From positions 248,001 through 312,000 of the forward strand of contig JAIBDZ010000001.1 of the NCBI GenBank assembly GCA_024685975.1: DNA of 64,000 nucleotides. Reading direction: 5' to 3'. Both the position numbers and the translations under genes were made by a program. Shown here in pieces: positions 22,359-52,323 of the stretch. The notes under the pieces were generated by a model. That model was not told where the DNA came from and did no database searches. It saw only the letters and a list, made by a program, of their open reading frames with translations. Every line of letters begins with the position of its first letter. Position 1 is the stretch's first letter. The DNA is from Piscirickettsiaceae bacterium. GTDB taxonomy: Bacteria; Pseudomonadota; Gammaproteobacteria; Nitrosococcales; Methylophagaceae.

Positions 22359-23330
22359 ATCAAACCGTTATTTACCAATAAAGCTTCATTAAATACTCGT
22401 CTTGTATTGGCTTTTATTGCCTCGTTGACAGTATTTATGCTCGATAGTCGTTTAAATTATTTTGCGGTGATGCGTAGTCATATGGCGACAGCATTGTACC
22501 CTGTGCAGTTAGTGGCTTCTTTCCCTAAAGATATGATGGGTTGGTTTGATAGTTTTTTTCAAACGCGTGAGGATCTTGCTGAGCAAAATCGTGCGTTGCA
22601 AGCTGATAATTTATTACAAAGTGTGCGCCTACAAAAACTGGCGGCTTTAGAACGTGAAAATATGCGTTTGCATGAATTATTAGGGTCTTCATTTAGGCTG
22701 ACAGAACGCGTGTTGGTCGCCGAATTATTAACGATTGATTCTGATCCTTTTTCACAACAAGTTGTGATTAATCGTGGTAAAAAATATGATGTATTTGAAG
22801 GACAGCCTGTTCTTGATGCCTCTGGTGTGATGGGGCAAGTGATGTCGGTGAGTCGGTTTTCAAGCCGAGTGATTTTACTGACCGATCCGAGTCATTCTAT
22901 TCCTGTACAAATTAACCGAAATGGCTTGCGCTCTGTTGCTACAGGGCGAGGTTTAGGTAAACCTTTATCTTTGGCTTTTTTACCGCATAATGCGGACGTA
23001 CGAGTAGGTGATTTATTGGTGACGTCTGGTTTAGGTGGGCGATTTCCTGTTGGATATCCCGTCGGCACCATTAGTCAAATTGAACATCCTCAAGGCAAAG
23101 CTTTTGCTGAAATCAGTGTTGAACCTGCCGCCCGCCTTGCGACCAGCCGTGAAGTGTTATTAGTCAGGCCTTCTGTGAATGCCGTATCAGTGTTAGATGA
23201 TGCAGAAACAACAGAAACAACAGAAACAACAGAAACAACAGAAACAACAGAAACAACAGAAACAACAGAAACAACAGAAACAACAGAAACAACAGAAACA
23301 ACAGAAACAACAGAAACGGAGGCGAGATAA
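22359..23330 (+). CDS. mreC: Rod-shape-determining protein MreC with a 12-unit Glu-Thr-Thr tail
   Basis: A periplasmic scaffold that links MreB/RodZ to the elongation synthases. After a short cytoplasmic tail comes one helix (VLAFIASLTVFMLDSRL), a coiled coil (REDLAEQNRALQADNLL, about residues 70-110) and the two beta domains of MreC. The C-terminus carries ETT x12, then ETEAR. No ATG/GTG/TTG gives the conserved tail IKPLFTNKASLNTRL. I place the start at an ATC codon, 22359, 5 bp after GGTGAG and 7 bp after an in-frame stop. A TTG at 22407 is the fallback, but it has no ribosome site and removes the positive residues before the helix. The last base overlaps mreD (TAATG). Confidence 0.85.
   Translation: MKPLFTNKASLNTRLVLAFIASLTVFMLDSRLNYFAVMRSHMATALYPVQLVASFPKDMMGWFDSFFQTREDLAEQNRALQADNLLQSVRLQKLAALERENMRLHELLGSSFRLTERVLVAELLTIDSDPFSQQVVINRGKKYDVFEGQPVLDASGVMGQVMSVSRFSSRVILLTDPSHSIPVQINRNGLRSVATGRGLGKPLSLAFLPHNADVRVGDLLVTSGLGGRFPVGYPVGTISQIEHPQGKAFAEISVEPAARLATSREVLLVRPSVNAVSVLDDAETTETTETTETTETTETTETTETTETTETTETTETTETEAR
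23205..23317 (+). repeat. Tandem 9-bp repeat in mreC, twelve perfect copies
   Basis: GAAACAACA is repeated twelve times without a mismatch from 23205 to 23312, followed by a partial GAAAC. Each unit encodes Glu-Thr-Thr. The unit length is a multiple of three, so slippage changes tail length without breaking the frame. The identical copies suggest recent expansion. Confidence 0.97.
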
Positions 23331-45743: not shown

Positions 45744-46871
45744 CTATTGCGTTCTTAGCGTTTTTGGAACTTGACCGTTATCTGGTGAGATAGCATCGTG
45801 AGGACAAGCATCCACACAAGCAAAACACCGAATACATTTTGATTCATCAATGTATAACGAGTTGTAGTAAATCCCCGATGTTTCTCTCGGTGATACTCTT
45901 GAAAAGTCTTCGACTTTTCTATTTTTACCAATTCCCATAATAGAGAAGTTAGTGGCTTCTACAATACAGTCTGCCACTGGTTTAACCAGTAGACATTCAT
46001 CGCAGACAACACATTTTGCATTATCGATAACAGGTGCTGGTGAACGTGCATCTTCAAACTTATCGTAATGGATGCGACTTTCTGGTACACCCGCTTGTTT
46101 CAATACTTCAGCACCATGGTCAATCATTGGAGGAGGACCACAGAAGAAAGCACTGACTTTGTTGATATCTAATTTACCTTGAGTCAGATAGTTTTCATTG
46201 AAGTACTCTGTGACGAATCCACGAGGACCATCCCAATCACTGTCTTCAGGTTCTTCTGATAACACTGGAATGAATTCAAAATGACATTCAGGGTTCCATT
46301 GTTTTGCAATCTCAGCCATTTCTTGCTGACAATACAAATCTTCTTGTGTACGAGCACCGTAGAAGAAGTAGCAATCACGCGCTAGGCTATTGTGATTAGC
46401 ATGTTCAACTAAGGCTTTAATCGCACTCATACCACTACCACCCGCTATGCAGACGATAGTGTTATCAGTTTTGTCTAAGCCAAATTTCCCCATAGGGCCA
46501 CTGACAACGACATTTTCACCTGAGCGGTCTTTCTCTTGGAACCAGTTAGATAAGCCACCACCTTCAACCATACGGATGAAGAAGGTTACTTCATTAGGGT
46601 TCTCTAACTCTGGAGACTTAGCAAACGAGTATGCACGTGGACGGTCAAGGTCTTCGACTTTGATCGTGCCGTATTGGCCTGCTGTTGCTCCTAGGAATCC
46701 TTCTTCTGATTCATAAGAGACAGTCACCTCGATGGTGTCGTGGGTAAGGGGTTTGACCCGACTGATGACACCATCGAAGTTACTGACGCGTTTACGTTGA
46801 ATTTCTATATTAGGTATATGAAATAAATTATCAAAAGGATCATTGAAATGATCTAATTGTGAATTTGCCAT
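45744..46871 (-). CDS. FNR-type flavoprotein reductase with C-terminal [4Fe-4S] ferredoxin domain
   Basis: A 375-residue electron carrier. Residues about 30-130 form the FAD domain (RPRAYSFAKSP supplies RxYS). Residues about 130-270 form the NAD(P) domain (VCIAGGSGMSAIKAL, FFCGPPPMI). The C-terminal 90 residues hold two Cys sets, CVVCDEC...C and CIRCFACVDACP, for two [4Fe-4S] clusters. Order is the reverse of BoxA-type reductases. It overlaps the molybdoenzyme gene by one base, so it most likely passes electrons between NAD(P)H and that enzyme. Direction is unknown. Confidence 0.85.
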   Translation of the reverse strand: MANSQLDHFNDPFDNLFHIPNIEIQRKRVSNFDGVISRVKPLTHDTIEVTVSYESEEGFLGATAGQYGTIKVEDLDRPRAYSFAKSPELENPNEVTFFIRMVEGGGLSNWFQEKDRSGENVVVSGPMGKFGLDKTDNTIVCIAGGSGMSAIKALVEHANHNSLARDCYFFYGARTQEDLYCQQEMAEIAKQWNPECHFEFIPVLSEEPEDSDWDGPRGFVTEYFNENYLTQGKLDINKVSAFFCGPPPMIDHGAEVLKQAGVPESRIHYDKFEDARSPAPVIDNAKCVVCDECLLVKPVADCIVEATNFSIMGIGKNRKVEDFSRVSPRETSGIYYNSLYIDESKCIRCFACVDACPHDAISPDNGQVPKTLRTQ

Positions 46872-49168
46872 TATTCGAATACTCCTGTGTGTACTTTTTT
46901 AGCTGCTTCAAGGATTTCTTCATCGGTTGCTTCGATATCTTTGTTGCGAGGATCTTCTCTCCAACGTTTGATATATCCTTCAACACCGCCCCAACGTTTT
47001 AGAATGTCTTTTCTGACTTCATCAGTCGCTAACTCTACTTCAACAAGACATGAGTAGAATGTTGGGCTGTTACCAAAGTCAGTTAACATTTCTGAGTTCA
47101 AGGCGTTGACATTGACGCCACCATAAGTGTTACTACCTTTGAATTGTTTCTGTGTATTACAGACACCTGGTAATAACTTCTCGATGATTACGGCATGAGC
47201 GTATGTTTCACCACGGTCATTATAAATACGACATAGTTGACCATCTTGGATGTTACGTTTTTTCGCATCTTTAGGACTGATTTCCAAAGTAGGGCGAGAC
47301 ATCATTGCTTGAAGTCTTGGTACTTGTTGGAATGAGTCACCAATGAAGTGATGAGACGCACAACTTAAGATTTGTAGTGGGAATTGCTCACGTTTCGGAT
47401 CGTCTTGGCCTTCAATTTCAGCCACATAACTTGGCATTGGATCAATACCTTGATCTTTCAATGTGGCACTGTAGATTTCAATCTTACCACTTGGTGTTGG
47501 CCAGCCTTTGTTGAGGAAGTCACGACGACTACTACTTGTATTCGCACGAGCCCAACCATTTTTCTTCAACTCTTCGTAGTCAATGCCTTCCATTAATGGA
47601 TTTGCTTCACCATCGACTAAGATATCACGAATGATTTCTTCATCTGTTTGAGTGAATGCATTGTCTTCTGGGTCAACATAACCCATTTTGTCAGCAAGTT
47701 TACGGAACAACTCTGAGTTACGAAGACTTTCACCTAATGGTTCAATGACAGGTTCGTTCATACCGAAGTACCAGTTACCATATGTGGCAACTAAATCCAT
47801 ACGTTCTAATTGTGTATCGGCTGGTAAGACGATATCCGCATATTGGCATGTATCAGACCAGAATGTGTCATGGACAGCCATAAATAGGTCATCACGCATC
47901 ATACCTTCACGAACGGTTTTACTGTTTGGTGTGCAGTTCGCAGGATCTGAGTTATAAACAAATAGTGATTTGATAGGTTTTGCAAATGGTTTGCCTTGTT
48001 CACCAAGGTGATCTCTTAATGCACTACCTAATTGAACCATGCTGATTTGACGTTTTGAAGCACGGTCACCTAAGTCTGGGCGGTGTAATTTTTCAAGGTT
48101 ATGACGTAACCACATTTCTTCTAAGTTACCGAAACCTGCACCACCACATTTTTCACGCCAAGAACCAGTAATGGCTGGCAATGTTAGGATTGCACGACAT
48201 GTTTGACCTGAGTTTTGATGGCGGTTTAAGCCGTAGTTAGCACGAATAACTGATTTCTTCGTTGAACCGTATTCTATTGCTAATTTCTCAATTTCACTTG
48301 CTGGAACGCCAGTAATTTCTTCTGCTTTCTCTAAAGTGTATTCAGGAAGTTGGTTTTCGATAAAGGCTTTCCAGCCTAATGTTTGTTCTTCTAAGAACTC
48401 AACATCATGCATGTTTTTATCAACGATGACTTTCATCATTGCTAATGCCATGGCTGCATCTGTACCTGGGCGAGGCTGGATATGCCAATCAGCCATCATT
48501 GTGGTACGTGTTTCACGTGGGTCAATAACAACTAGTTTCGCGCCACGTTCTTTTGCTTCACGTAAGAATGGGATAGCGTGTACACCCGTACTGACTAGGT
48601 TAGCACCCCATAAAATAATAAGATCTGCTTCTTGTGCTGCTTCATGAATAGAAGTGTCAGCGTGTGCCATACCATAAGTATGTAGGCCAGCCCACATTGC
48701 AGCAAAAATACAGATAGATTGTTCTAGACGGGCTGCTTCCATTTTATTCCAGAAGCGAGTGTCCATTGTCCAGTAACCGACCATACCCATCGTACCTGAA
48801 TACGAATAAGGTTGAACTGATTCTGAACCGTATTTTTCAATCGTTTCTTTAAAGTTATCTGTAATGGTATCAAGCGCTTCATCCCAACTGATACGTTCGA
48901 ATTTAGCTCCTGGTCCTTTTGGCCCAACACGTTTGTGTGGGTAGAGAACACGGTTGTCGTTATAAACATAATCAAGGTAGTGGTTAACCTTGTTACATAA
49001 ATGACCACGTGTAATAGGGTGAGTAGGATCACCTTGGACTCGGATCGCTTTTCCTGTTTTATCGTCTTTTGTTACCAGCATTGAACATGAGTCTGGACAG
49101 TCATGTGGACAGACGACGTGATGGACTGAATAGCCCTCTTTTACTTCGATTTTTGTATTAGCATTCAT
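46871..49168 (-). CDS. Cytoplasmic molybdopterin (bis-PGD) oxidoreductase
   Basis: A 765-residue DMSO-reductase-superfamily catalytic subunit. The N-terminal [4Fe-4S] site is CPHDCPDSC plus GHLC (Cys20, 24, 28, 58). The likely Mo ligand is Cys153 in LEQSICIFAAMW. Further family marks: LIILWGANLVSTGVH, KLVVIDPRETRT, MADWHIQPRPGTDAAMALAM, and a C-terminal molydopterin-binding domain with ISPKDAKKRNIQDGQLCRIYND. No Tat signal, so cytoplasmic. ATG at 49168 with AAAAGGGGTAAC is preferred to a TTG at 49216. It belongs to the CPHDCPD branch, mostly of unknown substrate. Formate dehydrogenase is less likely. Confidence 0.85.
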   Translation of the reverse strand: MNANTKIEVKEGYSVHHVVCPHDCPDSCSMLVTKDDKTGKAIRVQGDPTHPITRGHLCNKVNHYLDYVYNDNRVLYPHKRVGPKGPGAKFERISWDEALDTITDNFKETIEKYGSESVQPYSYSGTMGMVGYWTMDTRFWNKMEAARLEQSICIFAAMWAGLHTYGMAHADTSIHEAAQEADLIILWGANLVSTGVHAIPFLREAKERGAKLVVIDPRETRTTMMADWHIQPRPGTDAAMALAMMKVIVDKNMHDVEFLEEQTLGWKAFIENQLPEYTLEKAEEITGVPASEIEKLAIEYGSTKKSVIRANYGLNRHQNSGQTCRAILTLPAITGSWREKCGGAGFGNLEEMWLRHNLEKLHRPDLGDRASKRQISMVQLGSALRDHLGEQGKPFAKPIKSLFVYNSDPANCTPNSKTVREGMMRDDLFMAVHDTFWSDTCQYADIVLPADTQLERMDLVATYGNWYFGMNEPVIEPLGESLRNSELFRKLADKMGYVDPEDNAFTQTDEEIIRDILVDGEANPLMEGIDYEELKKNGWARANTSSSRRDFLNKGWPTPSGKIEIYSATLKDQGIDPMPSYVAEIEGQDDPKREQFPLQILSCASHHFIGDSFQQVPRLQAMMSRPTLEISPKDAKKRNIQDGQLCRIYNDRGETYAHAVIIEKLLPGVCNTQKQFKGSNTYGGVNVNALNSEMLTDFGNSPTFYSCLVEVELATDEVRKDILKRWGGVEGYIKRWREDPRNKDIEATDEEILEAAKKVHTGVFE

Positions 49169-49311
49169 AAAAGTTACCCCTTTTAAACTTCTGCTTTGTA
49201 GTAGTGCATGGAACAAACTGCCATTATTTTTTATTGGATAAGTTTGTTTATGTTCTGTGCTCCTTGCAGTGCAACTACCGTTCTCATAATTATTTTCGTT
49301 AAAAAATAAAG

Positions 49312-49340
49312 AATAGAGCTAGCACATTGCTAGCTCTATT
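49312..49340 (-). terminator. Terminator between porin and molybdoenzyme genes
   Basis: AATAGAGCTAGCA pairs perfectly with TGCTAGCTCTATT around CAT. On the minus transcript it is followed by a U-rich run. It lies inside the operon, so it probably lowers enzyme expression relative to the porin and channel, with a second promoter or read-through feeding the reductase genes. Confidence 0.7.
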
Positions 49341-49352
49341 TTTCGCTTTGAC

Positions 49353-50147
49353 TTAAAAGCTTTTTGATACCCCAAGAACATAATGTTCTTGCCAGATTCT
49401 GGTTGTATCTTTACTTGTGTCGTAATTGGTATCATGGAAACGAAGGTCGACTTTCCAACCTTTAGAGAATGATTTCGCAATACCAACATCCCAGTAGTTC
49501 CATGGGTTGACGCGATCACTTGTGAATGATTGTCTACCGAATGTTGCTGATACGCTGTAACCATCACCTAAGTCATAGGTTGGTGTAAGTTGGTAAGAAA
49601 GACCTTTTACGCCATCAGTACCAAACCAATCATTTAGCGTTGGTACGACTTCACCAGCTAGATTCCAGCGGCCGAACTGTTTGTTTGCTTGAATATATAA
49701 TTCGGTGTAATCGTAGTTATCGCCTTTCGGTTTATAACCATTGTCATATGTAGGTTCACTATTGCTGTCATTATCAACATGGTACATGTAGTGCCATAAA
49801 AGGACGTTATAGTTGATACCAGTGTCGCCAATGGTGCCAGCTTTACCAATATAAGGACCTGATTCAGCATAAACATCTGGTACTAAGTCAAACTTAACAG
49901 TAGCAGTCCAATAACCTAAATAGATGCCTGTGTCTTCGTGAGTCCAAGTGATCATGCCTTGCAGTGCTGGGATTTCACTGTTTTGTGTTTCTGAGTTACC
50001 GCGGAACATACGTTCGTTACCAATATAACCCCAGTATGAGAAGTTACCGCCCAAAAAGTCTGCGCCTTCTTCTTCTGCATAAACTGTTGTTGAGGTTACC
50101 CCTAATGCTGTTAAACCTAAAACAGCTGCTTTTAATGTGTTTTTCAT
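49353..50147 (-). CDS. TorF-family putative porin
   Basis: A 264-residue outer-membrane beta-barrel. The signal MKNTLKAAVLGLTALGVTST ends at VYA-EE. The strand pattern is typical of the Gcw_chp/TorF family: FLGGNFSYWGYIGNERMFRGNS, IPALQGMITWTHEDTGIYLGYW (in parts), LAGEVVPTLNDWFG, and terminal Phe (VLGVSKSF). TorF members often sit beside molybdoenzyme or oxide-reduction genes. ATG at 50147 with GGAAGT is chosen; a start six codons earlier is also open. A terminator follows. Confidence 0.82.
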   Translation of the reverse strand: MKNTLKAAVLGLTALGVTSTTVYAEEEGADFLGGNFSYWGYIGNERMFRGNSETQNSEIPALQGMITWTHEDTGIYLGYWTATVKFDLVPDVYAESGPYIGKAGTIGDTGINYNVLLWHYMYHVDNDSNSEPTYDNGYKPKGDNYDYTELYIQANKQFGRWNLAGEVVPTLNDWFGTDGVKGLSYQLTPTYDLGDGYSVSATFGRQSFTSDRVNPWNYWDVGIAKSFSKGWKVDLRFHDTNYDTSKDTTRIWQEHYVLGVSKSF

Positions 50148-50192
50148 GTTATTTACTTCCTTCACTTCTAAATGTCGATGTGTACTTCGGGC

Positions 50193-50717
50193 TTAAAGTG
50201 GTAAGTGGTCTAGAATTGGCCAGTAACCATATAAGTAAACCCAACCTGTAATTGCGACTTCAATACCAACAAAGTAAGTACCGAAGATAGTGATGCCCAT
50301 TACATTAGTATTACCTTTAGCAAGTACTAAGTAGAATAGGTACCAAAGAATACCGTAAGTGACCCACTCAAATGCCCAACCCATATCGCCACCTTGGAAG
50401 GCTTTGATTGCATATGGGATAGTTGTAATAGCAACTAAAAGGCAGTAGTAACCTAATGCACGTTGGTCTTCTGCACCACGTAATGCATTAATACCGATCC
50501 AAAGATAAGTGATGGCGAAAAGTAATCCACCCGCTGATAATGGAATGTTGTTTTGAACTAAACCAAAGAAGAGTGCACCAATAAATGCGAGTACACCAAC
50601 GATAAGGTTAAATACCCCAACGTCCTTAGACTCTACTTTGCCCTGAAGCCACATCGCATTGACGATGAGGATGAAACCGATAAAGAGTAATGGAACCCCT
50701 AAAAAGTGACCTGTCAT
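50193..50717 (-). CDS. AmiS/UreI-family channel for small neutral solutes
   Basis: A 174-residue protein with six or seven helices: VPLLFIGFILIVNAMWLQG, VFNLIVGVLAFIGALFFGL, LSAGGLLFAITYLWIGINAL, YYCLLVAITTIPYAIKAF, WAFEWVTYGILWYLFYLVLA and FGTYFVGIEVAITGWVYLYG. This is the AmiS/UreI pattern; known members pass urea, acetamide and similar amides. AAGGATACATT gives a good start. It is the first gene of the porin-molybdoenzyme-reductase chain, with no urease or amidase genes next to it. Confidence 0.82.
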   Translation of the reverse strand: MTGHFLGVPLLFIGFILIVNAMWLQGKVESKDVGVFNLIVGVLAFIGALFFGLVQNNIPLSAGGLLFAITYLWIGINALRGAEDQRALGYYCLLVAITTIPYAIKAFQGGDMGWAFEWVTYGILWYLFYLVLAKGNTNVMGITIFGTYFVGIEVAITGWVYLYGYWPILDHLPL

Positions 50718-50852
50718 AATGTATCCTTATAAGTGTGTTTAAACTGGACTAACATGTATTACTTTTTTGTTAGGTGTTAAAAAGAACTTTTGTGAATAAA
50801 AGGTAGTCACAGGTCGTGAGAATGTCGGCACCGTTATTTTGTTAAAATATAT

Positions 50853-50867
50853 TTGAATCATATTCAA
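50853..50867. promoter_or_regulatory. Operator-like dyad upstream of the channel-porin-molybdoenzyme operon
   Basis: TTGAAT-CAT-ATTCAA is a perfect 6-3-6 dyad, 136 bp before the first ATG. It resembles FNR/CRP half-sites (TTGA...TCAA) but the spacing is one base longer than the FNR box, so the regulator is uncertain. Confidence 0.35.
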
Positions 50868-52049
50868 CATAATTAACCCTGATGATTACTGTCTAATGGA
50901 AATCATTGCATCCCTTGCTAAGGGACGGAGCAGATGTGTTACACATAAAGAATTGATATCGTAACTAGTGAGTGATTTTTCGATTTGTCTCATTAGTAAG
51001 TAATCTCCTCTTAGCACCTACCGATCAATGAATACCTGTTTATTCATAAAATCCCGTAAACAACTTCCCACAAGCACAGTGACAAATCGCTTACGTAGGT
51101 TGAAAACTATGCCTATTTTTGGGGATGACAAATACGTAATAATACCGAGGGTATGGTACGTAAATATACTAACCAGTTAGTCGTGGCAGTAAGGCTTAAA
51201 CGTTATAAATATCGGTGATAACGTATAGGTAGTCCGATACCGAAAAAGTGATGCTAATTCAGCTGTTTAATATGAAGGGTGGGTGTTTTTTCTAGTCCAA
51301 ATAGCCTAATAAAAAGCTTGGTTTTTTACACGACTAAATTGCTCGGTTTTTTCGATTATTCTTATAAAAAAAATTGTCTTTTATTTGTCACAAAGGTAAC
51401 AACTGTGGTTATTTGACCACTTTTTGATATAAAGAAGGGCAAATCGCGCAAAAGAAAAAAGGGTTTTGCGGGATATTAATGCTTTGTTAAATAAGCTTTG
51501 TTTATATTCATATAACTGTAAACTCGTGTTATATCAGCAAAAATTTCATTTTGCCATCATAATTAAGCCCACTTATCGAAAAAAACGATGGTGTAAAAAG
51601 TCGATTTGGACTTGAAATGGGAAAAGTTCGTATAAATCGATTTTTTCGATATATCACTTGTTCTGAATAAATTAAAAAAAGAGATAATTTCAATCAAATT
51701 GGGTCTGTTTACTCGTGACGGCCATGATGGTTTTCTTATATGTATTATTAATAATATACTTATATATATTATTGATAAGTAGATGACTCAACGCTTCGAT
51801 AAGGATATAAACGGTTGCGAAACCTGACTTTTGGATAACGATAGTAAACTTACTATTTAGCCAGAATGGTTAATCTTAGATCGTCTTTTCTTAGTGTGAT
51901 GTTGCTATTCTTTTCAGAGCATAGCAAACACATCATTTATTGATCAGAGAAAGTGTGATTTCGGGTATTCGATGAGGGAAATTAGGCGGCGAGATGGCCT
52001 ATAAGCTTATAGAATAGATGAGAATAAGCTGAACAGCTTGCTGGAGATA

Positions 52050-52238
52050 GCTATATATAAGGTATATAGCCAGCTAAAAAGAATAAAACTAACAAGCTAA
52101 AACAACGTGTATTGAAGACGTTTGCACGTTCTTCCATTGCATTTATGATTGTTAGGTGCTTAATTTACCCTATTTAGCTGGCAGTTAGCCCCAGTTTTTG
52201 GCACTTCTATATAAGATATAGTTTTTTTCGGGGCTAAC
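52050..52238. repeat. Nested inverted repeats, possible structured RNA or attC-like site
   Basis: GCTATATA/TATATAGC (52050-52070); GCCAGCTAAA (52069-52078) with its exact reverse complement at 52173-52182; CTAACAA (52089-52095) with TTGTTAG (52149-52155); and GTTAGCCCC (52184-52192) with GGGGCTAAC (52230-52238) enclosing CTATAT-AAG-ATATAG. The GTTAG/CTAAC borders and about 69-bp and 55-bp sizes recall integron attC sites, but no integrase is near. Confidence 0.5.
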
Positions 52239-52323
52239 TATTCCATAAATGGCGTATATAGGCAAGTTTTTTTGTACCTAGAATCAGTCTAGAACGTCAT
52301 TTTGTTCGGGTACAATATGAATC

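Follow-up and report, generated by a model that had tools for sequence, protein, structure and literature searches.

The 64,000-nucleotide stretch analyzed here (the window; Piscirickettsiaceae bacterium, GenBank assembly GCA_024685975.1, contig JAIBDZ010000001.1, positions 248,001 to 312,000) contains four open reading frames (ORFs) that fill the minus strand from position 50717 to 45744. In order they encode AmiS, TorF, MOX and FNR, where MOX is our short name for a molybdoenzyme (gene or protein) and FNR for the adjoining NAD(P)H-flavoprotein, which ends in a 2[4Fe-4S] domain. All features described for this locus lie on the minus strand. The first gene (50193..50717) codes for a 174-residue inner-membrane channel of the AmiS/UreI family (PF02293, 119 bits against a cutoff of 25). 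The second (49353..50147) codes for an outer-membrane porin of the TorF family with a signal peptide (TIGR02001, 119.8 bits against 47.15; PF09694), and translation probably starts at the ATG at 50147, with a GTG at 50165 as the alternative. MOX (46871..49168) is a cytoplasmic oxidoreductase of the CPHDCPD type without a signal sequence, assigned to the Mo/W enzymes with a bis-molybdopterin guanine dinucleotide (bis-MGD) cofactor by domain profiles, alignment, predicted structure and tree. Translation of MOX most likely begins at the ATG at 49168, which is preceded by a GGGG ribosome site and gives a protein of 765 residues, rather than at the TTG at 49216. The start of FNR (45744..46871, 375 residues) overlaps the stop of MOX. 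This NAD(P)H:flavin reductase carries the motifs RAYS (residue 79), GGSGMSA (144) and CGPP (244), and its Pfam domains are FAD_binding_6, NAD_binding_1 and Fer4. The C-terminal adapter (45804..46013; CxxCxxCx8C ... CxxCxxCxxxC) provides eight cysteines suited to two [4Fe-4S] clusters.

The GC content of the four genes matches that of the window (41-42%) and therefore gives no pointer to recent import. An Rfam search found no elements near them. Upstream of AmiS lies a 1.6-kb AT-rich stretch (50718-52323, 33.6% GC) without a long ORF, which sister genomes do not conserve. An earlier interpretation made from the letters and their ORFs (the sequence-only reading) had named the same four same-strand genes, and Pfam and NCBIfam profiles agree with its family assignments. 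It was also right that the cluster includes no amidase, urease, chaperone or quinol subunit. Its description of the locus did not include the strong terminator that separates TorF from MOX.

This intrinsic terminator (49312..49340) consists of a 13-bp stem, a 3-nt loop and a T-rich tail. RNA folding yields -19.4 kcal/mol for the hairpin (z = -4.68), and 0 of 200 shuffled sequences were as stable. The only other genome with the order AmiS-TorF-MOX-FNR, a metagenome-assembled genome (MAG) labeled Piscirickettsiaceae (genome G010, locus L035), carries an unrelated and stronger hairpin at the same position (z = -6.9). Its MOX and AmiS are 83% and 84% identical to those of the window. AmiS-TorF stands beside MOX in two of the 63 intact MOX loci taken from named genomes, one of them that of the window, and both genomes belong to one genus. 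Four other genomes of this genus (G003, G011, G012 and G013) contain MOX-FNR, again with 83% identity for MOX, without AmiS-TorF. Conversely, two sister genomes (G018 and G022; L106:4757-9749 and L105:269-5100) contain AmiS-TorF without MOX, adjoining a mobA-mobB/moeA/ttcA cluster. Four genomes in all have AmiS-TorF near a gene for molybdenum cofactor synthesis or a molybdoenzyme, which may be chance.

Since a terminator separates the two halves, 61 of the 63 MOX loci lack AmiS-TorF, and AmiS-TorF occurs without MOX, the locus consists of two neighboring but independent two-gene units, AmiS-TorF and MOX-FNR, which are predicted to be transcribed separately. The terminators in both genomes and the neighborhood counts lead us to reject a single four-gene operon. 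The sequence-only reading had joined the four genes into one uptake-and-redox module and had named a lack of co-occurrence in other genomes as grounds for refuting it; the four genes occur together in just one other genome, which goes most of the way to such a refutation. A module of this sort, with AmiS-TorF importing the substrate of MOX, would agree with the identical gene order in two species and with the lack of formamidase or a convincing urease in AmiS genomes (see below). The observations that separate the units speak against it, and we consider it doubtful. A functional link, including import of the MOX substrate by AmiS, is suggested by proximity in two genomes. AmiS-TorF may have become attached upstream of MOX-FNR in this genus, where it may, but need not, feed MOX.

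The pairing of MOX with a reductase is far more widespread. A reductase gene adjoins MOX in 57 of the 63 loci, which come from marine and sponge-associated Gammaproteobacteria, and the two genes usually overlap or are at most 70 bp apart. In 43 cases the partner is of the FNR type and in 14 of the GltD type, an exchange seen in one pelagic lineage. The latter proteins have a Fer4_20/pyridine-nucleotide-disulfide oxidoreductase front, followed by a 2[4Fe-4S] tail as in FNR of the window (44% identity over 81 residues, E 4e-19). Hence, the adapter is retained when the flavin domain is exchanged. A further arrangement occurs in MOX relatives with 36-40% identity on annotated plasmids of Methylophaga pinxianii, Allorhizobium, Agrobacterium and Thioclava. 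These operons encode MOX together with a 2[4Fe-4S] ferredoxin and an FAD (flavin adenine dinucleotide) oxidoreductase as individual proteins. The gene that follows is moaA in three of the records and moeA-like in the fourth, and the three alphaproteobacterial records include an AraC regulator beside the operon. Because the same parts are found fused, with one domain exchanged, or as separate proteins, a predicted electron path NAD(P)H - FAD - 2[4Fe-4S] - Mo is well supported. The direction of electron flow and the preferred nucleotide are what we infer. The earlier proposal that the flavoprotein is the partner of MOX thus finds support well beyond the window.

Several MOX loci differ from this pattern or extend it. 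Two contain neither reductase type; instead, a lipoyl-domain/dihydrolipoamide-dehydrogenase-like gene lies directly upstream of MOX (L059:283-1977 and L087:8251-9948), and its product is possibly a third kind of electron partner. Five loci (L066, L067, L069, L073 and L097) have two molybdoenzyme genes, two FNR genes, or both, most of them with an AlkB-like (FA_desaturase) membrane di-iron protein or a MetX-like hydrolase nearby; these may represent a larger oxygenase cluster. A 37% identical relative on a Streptomyces plasmid (L128:5406-16411) is part of a presumed biosynthetic cluster, together with genes for a heme-oxygenase-like iron enzyme, a 2-oxoglutarate-Fe oxygenase and pyridoxal phosphate enzymes, and dapF. 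The marine-type gene of these Gammaproteobacteria also appears in public MAGs titled Winogradskyella and Klebsiella pneumoniae (L059, L066 and L097), which are probably mislabeled or mixed bins.

We then asked what type of molybdoenzyme MOX is. The domains PF04879, PF00384 and PF01568 (Fe4S4, molybdopterin and dinucleotide-binding) follow each other in this order, all above the Pfam cutoffs. Cys20, Cys24, Cys28 and Cys58 are the cluster cysteines. Cys153 (codon 48710..48712) is invariant across 35 aligned relatives with identities down to 31%, and aligns with the Cys/Sec ligand of formate dehydrogenases. The metal center is predicted to be a Mo (or W) bis-MGD with Cys153 as the presumed ligand. 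The scores of MOX stay far below the cutoffs of all curated models (DmsA/YnfE, TIGR02166, 312 against 777.7 bits; formate dehydrogenase alpha subunit, TIGR01591, 275 against 666; NasC, 242 against 1100; YdeP, TIGR01701, 61 against 582). A structural model (predicted local distance difference test score 90) fits formate dehydrogenase, perchlorate reductase, acetylene hydratase and Nap to a similar degree, with template modeling scores of ~0.75. In a quick tree, from which we disregarded a truncated and out-of-frame BisC row, the MOX sequences form one fully supported clade apart from the other enzymes included; the branches are long and do not settle the neighbors of this clade. As judged from sequence, MOX forms a clade of its own, with Cys as the ligand, within the dimethyl sulfoxide (DMSO)-reductase (bis-MGD) superfamily. 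This result upholds the view that MOX belongs to a cytoplasmic branch without assigned function, and the ligand proposed by the sequence-only reading keeps its number in the 765-residue frame.

Comparison with known systems delineates this clade further. DmsA/YnfE gave the best NCBIfam score and shares the CxxxCxxxC cluster motif, but MOX has no DmsB/DmsC neighbors, no signal sequence, and a Cys instead of a Ser ligand. NasC with the flavoprotein NasB offers a parallel to MOX-FNR, in that an NAD(P)H flavoprotein supplies a cytoplasmic catalytic subunit of the bis-MGD type; however, MOX scores far below the NasC cutoff, and the window genome encodes a separate assimilatory nitrate reductase NasA (G000:C4). 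The same genome also owns a complete NAD-dependent formate dehydrogenase with FdhD, so the roles of nitrate reductase and formate dehydrogenase are already filled. Formate dehydrogenase H and the NAD-dependent Fds-type enzymes resemble MOX in fold, in the Cys at the Sec position and, for Fds, in NAD coupling. In place of the NuoF/NuoE-type partner of Fds, MOX has FNR. Furthermore, the alignment shows one residue inserted after Cys153, and the residue following this cysteine is Ile, Val, Gly or others; the His of formate dehydrogenases is not there. The RGQNNVQG stretch, which contains their active-site Arg, reads FGNLEEMW in MOX, again without the Arg.

The sponge-symbiont genome of Porisulfidus, a single contig of 1.59 Mb, is informative in this respect. 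The Molybdopterin profile finds three proteins in this genome: MOX, NuoG and an FhcB-type protein whose gene neighbors those for FhcA and FhcD. Going by the profile searches, MOX would thus be the only bis-MGD enzyme of Porisulfidus. A tblastn search with E. coli FdhD did not find this protein in the Porisulfidus genome, of which 72 kb (4.5%) were masked, while the same query detects FdhD of the window genome at 46% identity. MOX would accordingly not need FdhD.

Based on the active-site alignment and the lack of a detectable FdhD in Porisulfidus, we reject an ordinary formate dehydrogenase; all features tested (active-site His and Arg, FdhD, model score) agree with the earlier expectation that MOX is something else. 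A second candidate, Fdh4A, is also a soluble molybdoenzyme of methylotrophs. Published work (PMC10308882) places this protein with YdeP and reports a role for it in the oxidation of formate, but MOX falls outside that family by its TIGR01701 score and belongs to a separate branch. A non-canonical dehydrogenase, in which FNR would reduce NAD(P)+ with electrons that MOX draws from formate or a different C1 substrate, is another matter. Going by the role reported for Fdh4A, non-canonical enzymes of such sort exist, formate dehydrogenases are among the superfamily relatives on which the MOX model overlays, and Porisulfidus has genes for the formate-producing formyl-tetrahydromethanopterin hydrolase (Fhc) without a second bis-MGD enzyme. 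The missing His and Arg and the missing FdhD weigh against this function, as does the presence of other enzymes for the task: besides the one in the window genome, the pelagic relatives encode another enzyme, of 919-946 residues. We regard C1 oxidation as unlikely. With regard to methylotrophy, a XoxF (methanol dehydrogenase) query from a sister locus gave no match at a strict limit, which is uninformative.

The best match of MOX among solved structures by sequence is acetylene hydratase from Pelobacter acetylenicus (2E7Z, E 4e-57). Both are Cys-ligated bis-MGD proteins with one [4Fe-4S] cluster and a similar Cys-Ile...Ala-Gly-(Leu/Val)-His stretch after the ligand. It is conceivable that MOX, too, catalyzes a hydration or a hydroxyl transfer, and that the reductase merely keeps the metal center reduced. 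Yet the quick tree, with its long branches, places acetylene hydratase elsewhere, and the cluster motif of this enzyme is CxxC, in contrast to CxxxC in MOX. The Asp that directly follows its second cluster cysteine has no exact counterpart, since MOX has Pro at this position and Asp one residue on. Acetylene hydratase also has no dedicated reductase, whereas the tight conservation of the NAD(P)H partner of MOX suggests stoichiometric use of electrons. We consider a reaction of this kind very improbable.

The second unit appears to serve uptake. Residues F84, Y88, W142, W146 and W153, which form the constriction of UreI, correspond to F67, Y71, W114, W118 and W125 of AmiS. UreI W149 is replaced by Y121, so that three of the four tryptophans are kept. 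In line with UreI and known AmiS channels, the protein of the window thus belongs to the family and largely keeps the constriction. Different from them, it has no gating His and is paired with a TorF porin, and its genome contains no formamidase or clear urease. Since the pore half lacks His, acid gating is not expected, and AmiS plausibly stays open and lets small neutral molecules pass. Channels of this subtype occur in 6 of 369 genomes of the class. Formamidase was found in none of the five AmiS genomes searched, and urease gave at most one borderline profile match (G022), although the missing overlap is not significant at n = 29 genomes. With no formamidase and no convincing urease in AmiS genomes, we reject formamide or urea hydrolysis behind this channel.

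Some neighborhoods of MOX point to organosulfur compounds. In L087, genes for SfnG, scoring above the cutoff, and an FMN (flavin mononucleotide) reductase lie upstream of MOX, and monooxygenases of the NtaA/DmoA family are encoded near MOX in L059, L068 and L073. Seawater commonly contains dimethylsulfone (DMSO2) and DMSO, two small uncharged compounds. Hyphomicrobium sulfonivorans reportedly reduces both compounds in an NADH-dependent manner, and we know of no gene for the dimethylsulfone reductase of this organism. Searches of the literature gave no result for UreI combined with acetylene hydratase, for AmiS combined with molybdopterin oxidoreductase, for the CPHDCPD motif or for dimethylsulfone reductase. 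Our tentative guess by context, with odds clearly below even, is that MOX reduces a small uncharged oxide of sulfur or nitrogen, for instance DMSO2 or DMSO. We rank this class of substrates first and a non-canonical C1 dehydrogenase next. The more specific idea is that MOX and its exchangeable NAD(P)H partner constitute an undescribed family of cytoplasmic reductases for a small methylated sulfur oxide in marine and sponge-symbiont bacteria, and could for example represent the NADH-dependent dimethylsulfone reductase. This idea we consider rather speculative.

Other neighborhoods suggest inorganic sulfur. Genes for SoxY, SoxZ and a SoxA-like cytochrome lie directly upstream of a reductase-MOX-reductase arrangement on the same strand (L069:601-7464). 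In Porisulfidus and in small (1-Mb) 'Thiothrix'-like genomes, YeeE/YedE, SoxY and TusA are encoded near MOX; in the former, SoxY stands beside the MOX-reductase pair. MOX could thus convert sulfite, thiosulfate, tetrathionate or polysulfide in the service of sulfur oxidation. However, 26 of 48 MOX genomes have SoxB, compared to 147 of 369 genomes of the class, a small excess only, and 0 of 8 genomes of the 1-Mb 'Thiothrix'-like lineage that retain MOX have it. Because the frequency hardly exceeds the class background, a general association of MOX with Sox is rejected, and an enzyme of inorganic sulfur metabolism is quite unlikely.

In our overall interpretation, to which we assign a probability of roughly 40%, the two units are independent, MOX-FNR is a soluble NAD(P)H-dependent reductase, and AmiS-TorF is an uptake pair for neutral solutes. 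The anatomy of the locus, the conserved pairing, the exchange of partner domains, the separate transcription units and the missing formate-dehydrogenase hallmarks were computed here. The FNR-type flavoprotein would accept hydride from NAD(P)H and pass single electrons on through both of its [4Fe-4S] clusters; MOX would receive them at its own [4Fe-4S] cluster and hand them to the Mo (or W) bis-MGD center at Cys153. At this center a small substrate would most likely be reduced in the cytoplasm. The TorF porin and the ungated AmiS channel would admit neutral solutes and may supply MOX. Several points weigh against this interpretation or against the substrate guess attached to it. FNR- and GltD-type modules can also run towards NAD(P)+. 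Nitrogen rather than sulfur would be indicated by AmtB downstream of MOX in nine loci of another lineage, and AmiS in the window locus is a further pointer in this direction. The Porisulfidus genome gave no match to SfnG and DmoA queries, so the organosulfur context is not general. The modest SoxB excess described above also offers little help.

Elsewhere in the window, a short tandem repeat encodes the long C-terminal (TTE)n repeat tail of an MreC-like protein (22407-23330).

The superfamily of MOX is known; of interest within it is an uncharacterized, conserved family of NAD(P)H-coupled molybdoenzymes from marine bacteria, whose electron-input module is exchangeable. The exchange of flavin modules on the same 2[4Fe-4S] adapter is a natural experiment that shows the coupling to NAD(P)H, and makes a direct biochemical assay possible. 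Tiny pelagic genomes keep the MOX-reductase pair, and so does the 1.59-Mb genome of a sponge symbiont. Porisulfidus retains moaA, moeA and mobAB, and if MOX is indeed its only bis-MGD enzyme, the function of MOX would justify carrying these genes. Should the substrate be a methylated sulfur oxide, this family would supply a missing piece of the marine organosulfur cycle, and a genome-reduced symbiont would keep the whole bis-MGD pathway for this one enzyme.

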